Origin: Spirochaetota bacterium
Lineage (GTDB): Bacteria; Spirochaetota; Spirochaetia; Treponematales; UBA12059
Direction of reading: 5' to 3'
Assembly (NCBI GenBank): GCA_018815555.1
Contig: JAHIWF010000158.1
Coordinates: 1 to 45,677, forward strand
Length of the DNA: 45,677 nt
Each line of letters starts with the position of its first letter. Within the stretch, counting starts at the first letter, position 1. Position numbers and translations under genes: made by a program. The notes under the pieces are model-generated. The model had not been told where the DNA came from. It did no database searches and saw only the letters and a program-made list of their open reading frames with translations. Shown here piece after piece: positions 16,323 through 39,548 of this stretch.

Positions 16323-17411
16323 TTATACCCGGGCGGAATAGCCGTTGTCGCGGAAACTGAAACAGGCCGAGGTACCAGGCTGCGCGGCGCTGAAATCCAG
16401 CGAGCCTTCCAGCTGATGCTCCACCAGCATTCTGGCCAGCTGCAGCCCCAATCCAGCCGCCGGTCCCGAGTCGGCTGCAGCAGTATAGCCCTTTCCGTCA
16501 TCCAGCACGAACAGCTTCTGCAAACCATCCGCCTGAGGCTGCAGCCTGACGCGGACCGTCCCGGAGCGGCCATCAGGAAAGGCATGGCGCAGACAATTGG
16601 AAACAAGCTCGCGGACCACCATATTAACCGGAATTGCGATATCCACCGGCAGCTTAAGCGGTGGAAGGTCGAAATCGAAGCGGACTCGTTCCTGGATATG
16701 CGGATAGCGCGGCAGCATGGCATCACAGAGCTGGGGCACCAACTGCTCGAGCTGAACATAGGTAAGCTCAATTTGATGCAGGTTTTGCTGCACCAGCGCC
16801 ATTGTGTGAATACGTTCCTGCAGGGTGCGCAAATCCTCCATCGTGGCCGGATCGCGGGTTTTCTGCAGCTGCATTTCTATCAGATTCATCATCACCGTCA
16901 TGTTGTTGCGTGTCCGGTGATGGATTTCACGCAGCAGCACTTCCTGCCGCTGCACGGCCGCCTCCAGCTCGGTGGTACGGCAGCGCACCACGGATTCCAT
17001 ATGCAGCTGCAGCCGGCGCAGCGTCAGGTGTGTGCGCACCCGTGCCAAAACTTCTTCGGTTCTGAAGGGCTTGGCAATATAATCGACGCCACCCAGCTCA
17101 AAGCCCCGGACGATGTCCGCCGTTTCGTTCAGTGCACTGATAAAAAGTACTGGTATTTCCCTTGTGCGTTCCTCAGCCTTCAGTTGCCGGCACACCTCGT
17201 AACCGTCCATTACCGGCATACGCAGATCCAACAAAATCAGGTCTGGATGGGCGGTGCGGGCAAAATAGAGCGCCCGTTCACCACTGGGGGCTGCCCGCAC
17301 CAGGTACCCCTCCGCTGAAAGAATTTGCTGCAGGAGATGCAGATTCTCCGGGATATCATCTACAGCCAGAATGGTATAAGGCTCGCGGTTTCCACAATCC
17401 GGTTCATTCAT
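16323..17411 (-). CDS. Response regulator receiver fused to HisKA_2-type histidine kinase
   Basis: REC: ILAVDDIPENLHLLQ, LILLDLRMPVMDG, FISALNE, AKPF; HisKA_2-like LLREIHHRTRNNMTVMMNLIEMQ; HATPase. Confidence 0.85.
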   Translation of the reverse strand: MNEPDCGNREPYTILAVDDIPENLHLLQQILSAEGYLVRAAPSGERALYFARTAHPDLILLDLRMPVMDGYEVCRQLKAEERTREIPVLFISALNETADIVRGFELGGVDYIAKPFRTEEVLARVRTHLTLRRLQLHMESVVRCRTTELEAAVQRQEVLLREIHHRTRNNMTVMMNLIEMQLQKTRDPATMEDLRTLQERIHTMALVQQNLHQIELTYVQLEQLVPQLCDAMLPRYPHIQERVRFDFDLPPLKLPVDIAIPVNMVVRELVSNCLRHAFPDGRSGTVRVRLQPQADGLQKLFVLDDGKGYTAAADSGPAAGLGLQLARMLVEHQLEGSLDFSAAQPGTSACFSFRDNGYSARV

Positions 17412-19980
17412 CTCGCATACCCCCGATTCCGTTTTGCAGCCAGGTTACAATTGCATCATACTCAAATTGACTAGTAAGCCGCAACAGTTCATCGGCCAGG
17501 GGCTCGCTTGTCTTACGGATTTCTGCAATCAGTTCCCGTATAAGCTGATCATCAAGCATCGCAATTGATTGATATAAGCGCATTGCCAAAACCGGATCGA
17601 GCCCGGCCAGATTTTCCGGGACAAGACAACTGACTTCGGCTTCATATTTATGGTGCGCATGGCCTGATTCATCCTGGTCCGCATATATAAAACGCGCATC
17701 AAGCAGGCCGGCCATCACCCGGAATATCTCTTCATTCTTAAATGGTTTTATTACAATACCATCACATCCGCTTTCAAGCACCCTGGTCCTGGTGTCATAA
17801 AAAGAATCGGCGGTAATCGCCGCAATCGGCACCCGGTACCACTGTCCCATTGGATTAGCCAGCAATTCATAACGGCGTATAGCCTTGATAGTTTCATAAC
17901 CGTCCATTTCCGGCATATGTATATCCATCCAGACAAAATCCGGCTTCCACTTTTTAAAAGCATCGAGTGCAATTTTACCGTTTTCAGCGGTTTTTACCGA
18001 GAAACCTACCGAAAGCAGTAAATCTTCCAGCAACCTGCGGTTGTCACCATCGTCTTCGGCTATCAGCACCCTGTACTCGCGCTGGCCGGGCTGAAGCTTA
18101 CGTACCATTCTGGCCGGCCTGGTTAATATTCCTGAGCTAAAGCCCTGAACGGCCTCGCCTGCAGGCAGGCAGAATGAAAAAACCGAACCCTTTCCCGAAT
18201 GACTTTGCAGGTTTAATTCGCCGCCCAGCAAGGCCACATATTCGCGGGTAATCGCCAGGCCCAGCCCGGAACCCTGCCCCATCGAAGTGCTGAAAATCTG
18301 CTCAAAAGGCTGAAAAATCCGTTCCTGATCTTCTACTGCAATACCAACCCCGGTATCACGCACTTCGAAACAAATGGCCGGATTGCGCTCAGCTCCTAGC
18401 GCTACTGCCGCGAGATCGGCCGGTCGAACCAGGCTTACACTCATTGTTACTGTACCACTTTGGGTAAATTTGATGGCGTTTCCCAACAGATTTACCAAAA
18501 TCTGATTTAGCTTTGCCGAATCGGTGCTAATCCTGACAGGCAGTCCGGTCTCCAGTGCCAGCCTTAGTTCCAATCCCTTCTGTACAGCTCGATGGCTATA
18601 CAAATCCATCAAACCCTGTAAAAAATCATCCAGGGCTATAGTCTGTAGGTGCAGCTCCACCCGACCAGCCTCAATTTTGGAGATTTCCAGAATATCATTG
18701 ATAAGCGCAAGCAAATGTCCTCCACTGCGGTTTATCACAGCCAGACGTTCCCGGTGTTCTGCCGGCAGCTTCAGGTCATGCCCCATCAACTGCGTAAATC
18801 CCAAAATAGCGTTTAGTGGTGTTCGCAATTCATGGGTCATATTGGCCAGGAAATTACTTTTTGCCCGGTTGGCCAAACGGGCTTCGTCCCGGGCTTGTGT
18901 CAGCTCGGCTGTCCGTTCCATGATGGAATCCTCCAGATCGATCTGATACTTGGCCAGATTCTCTTTCTCGTCACGCACCAAGCCTATAAGATGCAGCAAT
19001 TCCAGCGCAAAACTGCGAATCAAGGCATGGTACTGGATGTTTTCATCAAATTGCAGCGGCTTTTCCGAAGCATTGTGCAGCACTTCTGCCAAGGCCGGTA
19101 TCATTGAATCCAGCATAAGGACAGGATCACTCCCGGCTGCAGCAATAGATTTTGACAAACGCTGGGTAAACATCAAAAGCTCGTCATGTTCCCGGCGAAG
19201 CATTTCGAAATCAGAATGAATCCGGCTGGTGCGCCGGTTGACTATTGCGATGACTATCAGCAGAAGAATGGCAACACTGCCGAACAAAAGCATATCACTA
19301 CTGATATCCTGGAACACCAGCAGCTGTCCGCCGGCTATAGCCGTGATACTTTTCCCGACCACCAGATAGAGTTTCCCGTCATCGATGCGCAATAACCCAG
19401 TTTGTGGTTCCCTACCTAGCCAATCAGGATTATCAGAGTACCGGATATGTTCGTCGGACACAATGGCCAGTCGGGTTCCACTGGCCAGGGTAGAGGGGAA
19501 AAAATTATCCAGCCGGAAAGAATGCACCTGATAGTAACCCGGATAGCTCTTGACCAGGTGTACCCGCTGCTGGCCATCCAGCAGATCCTGGTAAAAAATA
19601 ATCAAAAGTTCACCAGATTCAAGTTTGCTAATTCTGGTAAAAAACCCGCTTTCACGCAGATCCAGCCCATTCATCAGCGGATCGGGCGACCGGAGCAGCG
19701 TTCCGCCGGCACTGATCCGCAGCTCATGTTCGGGCAGCGGCAGGTCGCCAAACCGGCGGGTTCCGTCATCCATGGTCATTTCAAGCCGGTCGAGCCGTGC
19801 AAGAAAATAGTCACGCCACAGTGTAATGACGCCATTTAGGTGAAGACTGTTTATAATAAGGAAAAAAACCAGGAACAGCAGAGCCATACCTATCAGCACC
19901 GCCCGGCTTATATTGAGTGTCTGAAGAATCTTGCGGTAAAGTGTGCTGATGTTTCGGGTAGTACCCTGTATGTTTGTCAT
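17404..19980 (-). CDS. Membrane hybrid sensor histidine kinase with C-terminal receiver
   Basis: N-terminal TM segments; SNFLANMTHELRTPLNAILGFTQLM; LGNAIKFTQ; GSGLGLAITREYVALLGG; REC VLIAEDDGDNRRLLEDLL...DFVWMDIHMPEMDGYE...KPFKNEEIFR. Overlaps the downstream REC-HK gene. Confidence 0.88.
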   Translation of the reverse strand: MTNIQGTTRNISTLYRKILQTLNISRAVLIGMALLFLVFFLIINSLHLNGVITLWRDYFLARLDRLEMTMDDGTRRFGDLPLPEHELRISAGGTLLRSPDPLMNGLDLRESGFFTRISKLESGELLIIFYQDLLDGQQRVHLVKSYPGYYQVHSFRLDNFFPSTLASGTRLAIVSDEHIRYSDNPDWLGREPQTGLLRIDDGKLYLVVGKSITAIAGGQLLVFQDISSDMLLFGSVAILLLIVIAIVNRRTSRIHSDFEMLRREHDELLMFTQRLSKSIAAAGSDPVLMLDSMIPALAEVLHNASEKPLQFDENIQYHALIRSFALELLHLIGLVRDEKENLAKYQIDLEDSIMERTAELTQARDEARLANRAKSNFLANMTHELRTPLNAILGFTQLMGHDLKLPAEHRERLAVINRSGGHLLALINDILEISKIEAGRVELHLQTIALDDFLQGLMDLYSHRAVQKGLELRLALETGLPVRISTDSAKLNQILVNLLGNAIKFTQSGTVTMSVSLVRPADLAAVALGAERNPAICFEVRDTGVGIAVEDQERIFQPFEQIFSTSMGQGSGLGLAITREYVALLGGELNLQSHSGKGSVFSFCLPAGEAVQGFSSGILTRPARMVRKLQPGQREYRVLIAEDDGDNRRLLEDLLLSVGFSVKTAENGKIALDAFKKWKPDFVWMDIHMPEMDGYETIKAIRRYELLANPMGQWYRVPIAAITADSFYDTRTRVLESGCDGIVIKPFKNEEIFRVMAGLLDARFIYADQDESGHAHHKYEAEVSCLVPENLAGLDPVLAMRLYQSIAMLDDQLIRELIAEIRKTSEPLADELLRLTSQFEYDAIVTWLQNGIGGMRDE

Positions 19981-20152: not shown

Positions 20153-20905
20153 CTACAGCTGTACGCCGGCTTCATCCAATGCCAGAACCTCGTATACCTC
20201 TGTTGTTTCTCCGGCGCCAAGCACCGAAAGGGTTTCTCTAAACCCCAGCCGCAAGGCGGCCCGCACCGGCTCTATCGCCGAAGCGCTGGCGGCAACCAGG
20301 CTGGTGGTTTTGGTTTTTGCCCACTTCTGCAGCACCGAAGCCATGTTTACCGTATCGCCAAGAATATCCAGTCTGGCATACAGAGGGTGACCGATACTGC
20401 CCATCCACACCTGCCCGCTGGCAAGCGTATAGCGCGCCGTAAACGGCTGCGACCGCCGGGCGGCGAATACCGCGCGGAAAGCCCGCAACTGATGCTGCGC
20501 GCCAATAAACACCGCCAAGAGCTCGTCACCTATATATTTGACAGGCAGACCGTCCTGGGCCATCACTTGCTCGGTGAGTGGATAGAAAAACGTATTCAGG
20601 GAGATAGCCAGATCGGCGGCTGATTGTTTGCAGGCCAGACTGCTGAAATCCTGCAGGTCGGCAAAAAGCACCGTAGCCGCAACCGTACGCTGGTCGCGCC
20701 AGTTGGAACATAACAGTGTATCGATGGATACACCGAGAATTTCCGACAGCTGCGGCAACATGGCAATGTCCGGCGCATTTTCGCCGCGCTCCCACTTGGA
20801 AACAGCCTGCGCGCTTATCTGCAGTGCGGCGGCCAGATCATTCTGGGTAAAGCCCAGCCTGGACCTATAAGTTTTAATAACAGAACCGATATCCTCGAGC
20901 AGCAT
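20153..20905 (-). CDS. XRE-family HTH fused to a class III adenylate/guanylate cyclase-like domain
   Basis: HTH: IGSVIKTYRSRLGFTQNDLAAALQISAQAVSKWERGENAPDIAMLPQLSEILGVSIDTLL; cyclase: VAATVLFADLQDFSSLA, PVKYIGDELLAVF, LDILGDTVNMASVL; SD aggagg. Confidence 0.85.
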   Translation of the reverse strand: MLLEDIGSVIKTYRSRLGFTQNDLAAALQISAQAVSKWERGENAPDIAMLPQLSEILGVSIDTLLCSNWRDQRTVAATVLFADLQDFSSLACKQSAADLAISLNTFFYPLTEQVMAQDGLPVKYIGDELLAVFIGAQHQLRAFRAVFAARRSQPFTARYTLASGQVWMGSIGHPLYARLDILGDTVNMASVLQKWAKTKTTSLVAASASAIEPVRAALRLGFRETLSVLGAGETTEVYEVLALDEAGVQL

Positions 20906-20942: not shown

Positions 20943-21012
20943 GGCGGACGGCACAAATAAATGACGCAATCAGACAGTCGGATCAACCAGCGCGCCATTT
21001 CCGGTGCGGCGA

Positions 21013-24315: not shown

Positions 24316-25521
24316 TCACACAATCTTCATGGATGCTTCAAGCTTTTCATAATAATTGATAACCTGACGCACATAACGCCGTTTTTCGGCATAGCTGCGC
24401 GGAAAGAACGAGCGCTTAAAGCCATTTATAATCAGGTCTTTCAGCTGGTGCGCGTTGATGTCGAAGTTTTCAGTAGCCAGGCACAATTCATTGGTTACGG
24501 TAGTATTGGAAACCAGGCGGTTGTCGGTGCAAAGGGTAATGGACAGCTGATTGTCCAGCATGCGCTGCAGGGGATGTTTGGCAACATGATCAATTTCCGG
24601 CACCGTCTGCAGGTTGCTGGTAAGGCATACTTCCAGGGTAATTCGCTTTTCAGCGATATAATTGATCAGATTATCAACATAGCGGTCTTTGTCCCTGATA
24701 TCGGAGGACAGGATTTTCGATGTATCAAAAAGAAAAAGGCCATGACCGATACGGTCGGCATGCAGCTTGGTTATGGCCTGGAATATCGATTCAGGCCCGT
24801 AGGCTTCGCCGGCGTGTACGGTCTTCATCATAAAGTGTTTGTGCACATGATCGTAGGACTCGCGGTGATTGTCGGCCGGATAGCCGTATTCGCTGCCGGC
24901 CAGATCAAAGCCAACCAGCTGGATGTCGGTATCGCGGCGGATGGCTACGGCACTGCGGGCCAGCTCCAGCGACACATCGCGGATTACTTCGCGCGAGCCG
25001 GAATATTTATGCAGCCCGAAGAACTGCTTGTAATATGGCGAGAATTTTTCATTGCAAAAGCGCATGGCACAGGCGATGATGCCGTATTCGAAACCCGGCT
25101 CGTCCTCCGGTACCTGCCGACGTATTTCCGCTCTGGCGCGCTTGAGCCCCCGGTCGGCGGCACCAAGCACCTCCTCGATCGACAGCTGCCCGTTCATAAG
25201 CAACTGCGGCGCAAAACGCGGCTCGATGTACCAGACTCCTTCAGCAAAATTGTCCATGGCCAGTTCGTAGGAAATCCGCTCGATGGCTTCAGCACTGCGC
25301 ATCACGGCACAGGTATAGGCAAAACCTTTCAGGTACTCGTTCAGATCGGCATAGCGGTCCTTGAACACGGTTTCGCGCAGACCGGCTTCGGTATAGCTGG
25401 GCAGCTCCACTCCAGCTTCTCGGGCTAATTCGATAAGCGTAGACAGCCGCATCGAACCGTCCAGATGCAAGTGTAAATCGGTTTTGGGCAGTTTGGCCAG
25501 AAATTCTACAGGGTAACGCAT
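24316..25521 (-). CDS. add: Adenosine deaminase family protein
   Basis: LPKTDLHLHLDGSMR, HAGEAYGPESI, HADRIGHG, EVCLTSN. Confidence 0.85.
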   Translation of the reverse strand: MRYPVEFLAKLPKTDLHLHLDGSMRLSTLIELAREAGVELPSYTEAGLRETVFKDRYADLNEYLKGFAYTCAVMRSAEAIERISYELAMDNFAEGVWYIEPRFAPQLLMNGQLSIEEVLGAADRGLKRARAEIRRQVPEDEPGFEYGIIACAMRFCNEKFSPYYKQFFGLHKYSGSREVIRDVSLELARSAVAIRRDTDIQLVGFDLAGSEYGYPADNHRESYDHVHKHFMMKTVHAGEAYGPESIFQAITKLHADRIGHGLFLFDTSKILSSDIRDKDRYVDNLINYIAEKRITLEVCLTSNLQTVPEIDHVAKHPLQRMLDNQLSITLCTDNRLVSNTTVTNELCLATENFDINAHQLKDLIINGFKRSFFPRSYAEKRRYVRQVINYYEKLEASMKIV

Positions 25522-37976: not shown

Positions 37977-39548
37977 CTAACGCCGCCCCAAAACTTTGTA
38001 TATCTGTATTGGCTGTTCTTTGCCTTTTACCTTTACCGGCTCCCTGGTCTCCAGCTTAAAAGCGCCGTCCAGCAGCTGCTTGGTATTTTCCGTTATTATT
38101 ACTTCATCCGCCTTGGCCACGCCTTCCAGGCGGGCGGCGATATTTACGGTATCACCTATAATCGAATAGTCCATGCGCCGGCTGGAGCCCAGATTGCCGG
38201 CAACCAGCGGGCCGGTATGCATGCCTATGCCTATGCGCAGATGGCTGGCTTTGCCGGTAAAGAACGTGCGTTTCGGATTGTCCACCAGCTGCTGGATATC
38301 CCAGGCACAGGAGACAGCCAGAAAAGCATCCTCAGCCTCGCTTGTCATGGGAACCCCCCAGGCCGCCATGATACAGTCTCCGATAAACTTGTCTATATAA
38401 CCGCGGTGCTTTACAACGATTTCCACCGCCTCTGAGAAATATTCATTTAGGACACCGATAATGTATTCCGGCTCTTTGCCTTCAGAAAAGGAAGTATAAC
38501 CGCGGATGTCGGCAAAAAAAACCGTGGCCTGTTTCTTGTCGCCGCCCAATTTTATCGAATTCGGTGAATCCATCAGGGATTGCACTACTTCCTGACTCAG
38601 GTAGCGCGAGAACATATCTTTGATCAGGCGCCGTTCTTCCACCGCCACATGCATCTGCTGCTTAAGTTCCTGCTCGCGGCTCTGGTCAGTAAACAAAAGG
38701 GTCAAGCCCTCATGCCGGCCGCGCTTGCCGCGCAAAGGACTGACGTTCAGTGAAAAATCCATAGGCCGGCTGCTGTCATTCCAGATGCCTTCTACCCCCA
38801 GTAGCTCCTGGCCATTAGTCTGGACGCCCAAAATGGCTTTCTGCAAACCTTCGTCGACCCTGCCGCCGAAAAAATCCTGCAGCTTCTGCCCGAGCCTGGT
38901 GTCATCAAGATTGAAAGCCTCCGCCGCCTTCTCGTTAAAATACTCGAGCTGCCCTTTTTCGTCGGTTGTAATCAGCAGATTGGTCATTGAAGAAAAAACA
39001 CTGGCCTGATAACGCTCCAGTTCTTCTATTTGTGCCAGGTAATCTTTCATTTCCTGAAAAAGCCTGGCATTGTCCATCATCCCGGCAGCCAGCTGGCTGA
39101 TGCTGTTCAGAAAATGAAAGCGGGCGCGGTTATAGAAATCCGGGGCAAAGGCATTCAGCACCAGAAAACCGAGGTTCATTTTCGGGGTTATCAGTGGCAA
39201 GGCTATGGCGGATTGCATGGCTGGATGCAGCAGAAAACCGGCCAGCGGGCTTATATGCCGCTCATGTACGATTATCGCCTCCCGGCAGTCATCCAGAAAC
39301 TGCAGAGATTCCTCCTGCCCGCTAAAGGCAGCGGGAATCTCGAAGCGGCCGCGGTGATATAAAAGACGCATACCCTTGGCCGGATTCTTGAAATCGCTCC
39401 AGGCATAAAAACCGGCTATATCTGAGCTGCTTACATCTATTGATTGCTCTACCAGCGAGGCTGCGAGCGAGCGAAAATCTGGTTCGTTGGCAACCAAGGC
39501 ACTGGCGCGCACCAACTCATCGAGCATGTCTACTTTTTCTGCCTTCAT
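37977..39548 (-). CDS. GAF/PAS-class III adenylate/guanylate cyclase
   Basis: ATVFFADIRGYTSFSE, KFIGDCIMAAWG, DYSIIGDTVNIAARLE; upstream PAS (LITTDEKGQLEYFNEKAAEAF) and GAF-like region; start reset to 39548 behind caggagg. Confidence 0.9.
   Translation of the reverse strand: MKAEKVDMLDELVRASALVANEPDFRSLAASLVEQSIDVSSSDIAGFYAWSDFKNPAKGMRLLYHRGRFEIPAAFSGQEESLQFLDDCREAIIVHERHISPLAGFLLHPAMQSAIALPLITPKMNLGFLVLNAFAPDFYNRARFHFLNSISQLAAGMMDNARLFQEMKDYLAQIEELERYQASVFSSMTNLLITTDEKGQLEYFNEKAAEAFNLDDTRLGQKLQDFFGGRVDEGLQKAILGVQTNGQELLGVEGIWNDSSRPMDFSLNVSPLRGKRGRHEGLTLLFTDQSREQELKQQMHVAVEERRLIKDMFSRYLSQEVVQSLMDSPNSIKLGGDKKQATVFFADIRGYTSFSEGKEPEYIIGVLNEYFSEAVEIVVKHRGYIDKFIGDCIMAAWGVPMTSEAEDAFLAVSCAWDIQQLVDNPKRTFFTGKASHLRIGIGMHTGPLVAGNLGSSRRMDYSIIGDTVNIAARLEGVAKADEVIITENTKQLLDGAFKLETREPVKVKGKEQPIQIYKVLGRR

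Follow-up and report, generated by a model that had tools for sequence, protein, structure and literature searches.

Predicted one-component regulators combining an XRE helix-turn-helix with a probably non-catalytic class III cyclase domain: a cross-phylum family with a likely role in the SAM cycle in its main branch

Introduction

What is the role of a nucleotide cyclase domain that is attached directly to a DNA-binding domain and lacks the transition-state arginine? The question is raised by a spirochaete gene located in the stretch of DNA analysed here (45,677 bp; its whole length is referred to as the window), for which a preliminary description made from the sequence alone had proposed a transcription factor sensing ATP or cAMP through a weak or inactive cyclase. 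We have computed the architecture and fold of the protein and, across its relatives, the residue pattern, the gene context and a common promoter motif. The reading that we favour, with a probability of roughly 60%, is that the protein belongs to a cross-phylum group of one-component regulators composed of an XRE helix-turn-helix (HTH) and a non-catalytic cyclase sensor, the main branch of which controls the cycle of the cell's methyl donor, S-adenosylmethionine (SAM), with S-adenosylhomocysteine (SAH) as the likely signal.

An XRE helix-turn-helix joined to a class III cyclase fold

The gene and the two domains of its product are the following.

20153..20905, minus strand: gene for an XRE HTH joined to a putative class III pseudocyclase (250 amino acids; ATG start, AGGAGG ribosome site, open frame)
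20717..20881, minus strand: XRE helix-turn-helix, residues 9-63 (Pfam HTH_3, E 1e-14)
20219..20695, minus strand: class III cyclase homology domain, residues 71-229 (Pfam Guanylate_cyc, E 2e-11)

The original observation that a canonical XRE HTH is joined to a cyclase domain is borne out by the open frame, the Pfam domains and the AlphaFold2 fold. Both HTH_3 (54.6 bits, the cut-off being 23) and Guanylate_cyc exceed their Pfam gathering scores, and the signal-input domain and the HTH lie on one chain, as they do in the relatives described below. The AlphaFold2 model has a mean pLDDT of 92.8; its residues 68-248 align by VIA with the guanylyl cyclase Cya2 (2w01_B; Z 22.8, rmsd 2.2 Å over 176 residues), which indicates that the cyclase fold is complete, and the match to CyaB (3r5g_A) is similarly close (Z 22.6). 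Pfam reveals neither an ArsR-type HTH (E up to 1) nor a shikimate kinase-like C-terminal domain, the C-terminal half of the protein being Guanylate_cyc, and the NCBIfam BzdR-type model covers the HTH alone (residues 1-69) with a score below its cut-off.

Family and distribution

Relatives were first recognised in a scan of species genomes by having the same length and the same domain order. In all, 23 relatives have the XRE plus cyclase architecture, one of them being incomplete; they come from Spirochaetota, Planctomycetota, Nitrospinota and Zixibacteria, and one lies on an IMG/VR contig. Profile searches recovered the family in 8 of 24 genomes of Nitrospinota, 9 of 392 of Planctomycetota and 2 of 16 of Zixibacteria (three copies), and the architecture in 3 of 23 genomes of the window's own spirochaete family; in a phylum sample of 392 spirochaete genomes the window gene was the only full-length match. 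The distribution of the gene is thus patchy everywhere except in Nitrospinota. In a phylogenetic tree the two full-length spirochaete sequences form a long branch separate from the other 21.

An origin from a phage or plasmid was considered and rejected, as no full-length relative was found in either, one IMG/VR contig being the carrier of a family member. This contig (L141, IMG/VR 3300031576_001285), classed as viral, has the family member next to metE. It also bears nrdA/nrdB and a cobalamin riboswitch (1062-1261), and farther away it encodes a recombinase as well as DNA methylases. One spirochaete copy (L090:1-580, genome G016) is broken at a contig end, between the HTH and the conserved NAPDI segment, which may reflect a pseudogene, an insertion or an assembly fault. 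A Chloroflexi gene (L017:158-1168) encodes a closely similar XRE HTH followed by a longer linker and a cyclase domain whose motifs are intact (NTASR); judging from these features, it may represent a stage between enzyme and regulator.

Catalytic residues drift while the adenine pocket is kept

In class III cyclases, the equivalents of K938 and D1018 serve adenine selection, that of N1025 binds the ribose, that of R1029 stabilises the gamma-phosphate, and two Asp residues bind the metals (PMC3591389). The corresponding positions of the window protein are listed here with their occurrence in the family, the counts being made over 24 sequences (the window protein and its 23 relatives), or over 23 at some positions.

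20657..20659, minus strand: first metal Asp, D83 (FAD); Asp in the window protein and in 5 of 24 members overall
20537..20539, minus strand: adenine-specifying Lys, K123 (PVKYIGD); 24 of 24 members
20525..20527, minus strand: second metal Asp, D127 (IGDELL); 23 of 24 members
20366..20368, minus strand: adenine-specifying Asp, D180 (LDILGDTVN); 23 of 23 members
20345..20347, minus strand: ribose-contacting Asn, N187; 22 of 23 members
20333..20335, minus strand: transition-state Arg position, V191 (N-M-A-S-V); Arg in 3 of 23 members

The two metal Asp, the Lys and the Asp at the adenine-specifying position had all been noticed in the preliminary description, and D83, D127, K123 and D180 are indeed present. 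The reported replacement of the transition-state Arg by Val likewise holds: V191 is aligned with the cyclase Arg in the photoactivated cyclase OaPAC (GDAVNVAAR against GDTVNMASV in the window protein) and faces an Arg kept by all of the about 20 class III domains aligned. We considered an Arg supplied from elsewhere and rejected it, since none is visible at the aligned position and the three relatives that do have the Arg are without Asp83. The window's other cyclase (37977-39548) retains NIAARLE, as had been pointed out, and looks catalytically complete. In the window's own genome (G000), 19 regions match the query; nearly all of these are class III cyclase domains that form part of longer proteins, and the organism is thus rich in cyclases.

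Among the 24 sequences compared, Asp at position 83 occurs in the window protein, L009, L090, L218 and L220, and among the 23 scored at position 191, Arg occurs in L213, L214 and L215, all three of which carry Ser at 83. No family member among the 24 combines Asp83 with Arg191, so none would be complete by the usual criteria for cyclases. The Arg is missing from both full-length spirochaete members, being Val in the window protein and Ala in L009. As judged from these alignments, the loss of the Arg is a tendency of the whole family and not peculiar to the window gene, and the family appears to retain adenine and ribose recognition while the parts handling metal and triphosphate (D83, R191) drift. 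A full cyclase fold is still predicted for L010, an ahcY-linked member in which D83 and R191 are both missing (pLDDT 94.6, VIA Z 23.4).

In the HTH, Q33-A-V-S-K-W-E39 and N43-A-P-D46 are invariant in the family. The second Zixibacteria copy (L225:5369-6091), which adjoins purA, has Pro instead of Asp127 and Ser instead of Asn187 and keeps Lys123 and Asp180; going by these substitutions, its ligand may be another adenine compound.

Many relatives of the gene adjoin SAM-cycle genes

A SAM-cycle gene lies directly downstream in 14 of 22 family loci (11 with ahcY, two with metH, one with metE), these loci not being all independent, as the Nitrospinota represent one clade. Specifically, ahcY, encoding S-adenosylhomocysteine hydrolase, is the next same-strand gene in all eight Nitrospinota loci and in the planctomycete loci L010, L217 and L221; metH follows the family gene in L220 and L218 (identified in the latter from its C-terminal domains and by tblastn), metE follows it in L141, and purA follows one Zixibacteria copy (L225). 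A homologue of ahcY, metE, metH or purA is found nearby in 15 of the 22 family loci and in none of 102 other XRE loci, a rough control drawn from the same searches and consisting mostly of Firmicutes and phage contigs. Counting against a SAM-cycle reading, one family member adjoins purA (L225) and others adjoin unrelated genes.

The neighbours of the spirochaete members are not SAM-cycle genes. In the window, histidine kinase/response regulator genes (16323-19980, minus strand) lie directly downstream of the XRE-cyclase gene, and no context common to them and the relatives' loci was seen. About 3.4 kb upstream, on the same strand, there is a gene for an adenosine deaminase (24316-25521, minus strand; Pfam A_deaminase, E 4e-66); hydrolysis of SAH yields adenosine.

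A common operator-like motif

The exact motif CAAC-N9-ATTG is present in 11 of 24 family-gene promoters, whereas dinucleotide shuffles average 0.22 and do not exceed 3; this asymmetric form was tested after inverted repeats alone had proved uninformative and a scan for gapped palindromes marginal. When the matrix is derived solely from four sites of Nitrospinota, the top match falls at the promoter of a family gene or a SAM-cycle gene in 12 of 12 non-window test loci. The best match is found at the family-gene promoter in L217, L218, L220, L221, L225 and the Chloroflexi locus L017; upstream of an ahcY unlinked to the regulator in L227, L228 (ahcY by tblastn) and L294; upstream of an unlinked metH in L264 and L265; and upstream of a homocysteine methyltransferase-MTHFR (metF-like) gene in L263. 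Four of these loci (L263-L265 and L294) came from a motif pattern search and were therefore selected for the motif and independently of what the genes do. In 16 genomes the pattern search yielded 54 sites, many of them intragenic, compared with about 13 when the reversed control was used.

In several promoters the motif, as read from the sequence, overlaps or abuts the -35 region of a TATAAT-like element, as would be expected for a repressor site. In L017 the candidate operator motif lies at 106-128, upstream of the XRE-cyclase gene. We rejected the idea that the upstream motif stems from an SAH or SAM riboswitch, as Rfam detected none in 18 loci.

The promoter of the window gene

A candidate site is present also upstream of the window gene.

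20981..21003, plus strand: candidate operator GATCAACCAGCGCGCCATTTCCG, within the 107 bp of intergenic DNA that precede the window gene

With a nine-site matrix built without spirochaete sequences, 20981-21003 is the best match in the whole 45,677-bp window (15.7 bits, the next reaching 12.3), and 4 of 1000 dinucleotide shuffles of the 107-bp region attain 15.7 bits. The site differs from that of L215 at two bases over the 17-bp core. It ranks second with a Planctomycetota-only matrix and is not the top match with the Nitrospinota-only matrix. Taken together, the matrices lend moderate support to a candidate operator of the window gene. A recognisable site was not found at the other two spirochaete members, L009 and L090.

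A SAM-cycle regulon in the window's own genome was considered and rejected: its ahcY gene is present and has no site, the relaxed motif is not enriched (42 matches against 39 for the reversed control), and matches to the tight pattern (6 against 2 for the reversed control) are mostly intragenic. Regulation by the window gene of its own promoter from the candidate site at 20981-21003 is a plausible proposition on the evidence of the matrices.

Proposed mechanism

From the evidence above we infer the loss of catalysis, repression and the identity of the ligand, as well as the retention of the same ligand by the spirochaete protein. The protein would consist of an N-terminal XRE HTH and a class III cyclase domain that is no longer catalytic and serves ligand sensing. 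In the main branch the regulator would act through the pseudo-palindromic CAAC-N9-ATTG operator on ahcY, metH, metE and the metF-like gene, and also on its own gene; the overlap of this operator with the -35 region in several promoters would fit repression. The pocket, with its putative adenine (K123, D180) and ribose (N187) contacts kept and D83 and R191 relaxed, makes an adenosyl compound that lacks a triphosphate the most likely signal. The leading candidate is SAH, the substrate of AhcY, which would be the most likely ligand because ahcY is the commonest partner of the family and the core regulon of SahR comprises ahcY, metH, metF and metK (PMC4239095).

As to how the signal might reach the DNA, it is relevant that XRE repressors bind as dimers. 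Since class III cyclases hold their nucleotide at the dimer interface (PMC3591389), an adenosyl ligand bound between the pseudocyclase halves would set the spacing of the HTH domains, and altered spacing would cause the operator to be released (or loaded). The window protein would be a divergent spirochaete member, probably acting on its own promoter. A SAM-cycle repressor is a well supported reading for the branch comprising Planctomycetota, Nitrospinota and Zixibacteria; for the divergent spirochaete member we infer it only. Several points count against parts of this model. Among them are the findings on the spirochaete members given above: their long branch, their neighbours outside the SAM cycle, the ahcY without a site and the relaxed motif without enrichment in the window's genome, and L009 and L090 with no recognisable site. 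In addition, the conservation of D127 is unexplained, as a phosphate-free ligand would not obviously require it, which speaks against SAH sensing; and since both metal Asp, the Lys, the Asp and the Asn are all present in the window protein, it may have weak catalytic activity, which speaks against a pseudocyclase.

Alternative explanations

The first alternative is that the pseudocyclase lets the transcription factor sense ATP, AMP or cAMP, and hence the cell's energy or cyclic nucleotide status. The conservation of K123, D180 and Asn187, the two metal Asp retained by the window protein and the abundance of class III cyclases in its genome would all fit, as would the purA gene adjoining L225 and the position of L219 divergent from carA-pyrG-purF. 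However, the main gene context and the common motif indicate the SAM cycle, and it is precisely the metal- and triphosphate-handling residues that drift, so we regard this explanation as unlikely. The initial proposal is thus upheld in part: a transcription factor with a pseudocyclase sensor agrees with the family-wide loss of catalytic residues and the preserved adenine pair, and ATP or cAMP as its ligand has become less likely, with the ahcY, metH and metE neighbours and the common motif favouring SAH or another adenosyl metabolite.

Alternatively, the protein might be a genuine adenylyl cyclase of low activity that is tethered to DNA and produces cAMP locally or couples catalysis to DNA binding. 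The Arg is the only one of the named catalytic residues that the window protein lacks, and in the Chloroflexi protein of L017 an HTH of this kind is attached to a complete cyclase that has the Arg (NTASR); however, the Arg is missing from both full-length spirochaete members (V, A) and the wider family has lost Asp83, Arg191 or both, which makes this possibility rather improbable. Equally improbable, in our opinion, is a cyclase domain acting solely as a dimerisation scaffold in an ordinary constitutive or protein-regulated XRE repressor: the HTH is indeed better conserved than the cyclase domain (mean column identity across the family 0.74 versus 0.54), but in all the phyla K123 and D180 are unchanged, unlike other residues of the pocket, and a pure scaffold would not require such constancy.

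Comparison with known systems

In its predicted targets and probable effector, the family proposed here resembles SahR and SamR, the ArsR-family SAH/SAM-cycle regulators of Proteobacteria (PMC4239095). These have an ArsR HTH, whereas the window family combines an XRE HTH with a class III cyclase-fold sensor and occurs in Planctomycetota, Nitrospinota, Zixibacteria and Spirochaetota; SahR-like SAM-cycle targets are strongly indicated by context and motif in the relatives, and none was found for the window's genome. BzdR offers a direct precedent for the conversion of an enzyme into an effector domain: in it an XRE HTH is followed by a non-catalytic shikimate-kinase-like domain binding benzoyl-CoA (PMC3602430), although the enzyme fold, the ligand and the targets differ from those of the window family.

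A cyclase homology domain accompanied by a DNA-binding HTH is also found in the Mycobacterium proteins Rv0386, Rv1358 and Rv2488c, known as CHD+LuxR proteins, but their HTH is of the LuxR and not the XRE type, they are confined to Mycobacterium, and Rv0386 has been reported to be an active cyclase (PMC3466318). CyaB, Cya2 and OaPAC have the fold (VIA Z about 22) and the pocket K, D and N in common with the window protein; they are active enzymes with the transition-state Arg, where the window protein has Val. A survey published in 2016 counts helix-turn-helix among the fusion partners of cyclase domains and mentions PF01381 for partner proteins (PMC4886424); HTH_3/Guanylate_cyc is thus on record as a Pfam architecture, without function, regulon, operator or residue analysis. 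In the open-access literature searched we found no description of the XRE-pseudocyclase family, its residue pattern or its link to the SAM cycle, and none of XRE regulators of ahcY, only of other regulators.

Implications

The broadest version of our interpretation, in which a class III cyclase fold has become a non-catalytic sensor of SAH (or SAM or adenosine), new XRE repressors of the SAM cycle use one operator from Planctomycetota to Spirochaetota, and proteins of the L017 type are possible intermediates that are still catalytic, is tentative, and we place it somewhat short of even odds. If true, it would provide a family of SAM-cycle regulators for Planctomycetota, Nitrospinota and Zixibacteria, where no methionine-cycle regulator is described in the literature searched, and a case of a signalling enzyme converted to a metabolite sensor. 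Natural intermediates with or without Asp83, with or without Arg191, and in the intact Chloroflexi form, would then be at hand for tracing the path from enzyme to receptor. For genome annotation it would serve as a warning that proteins labelled as adenylate/guanylate cyclases can be transcription factors.
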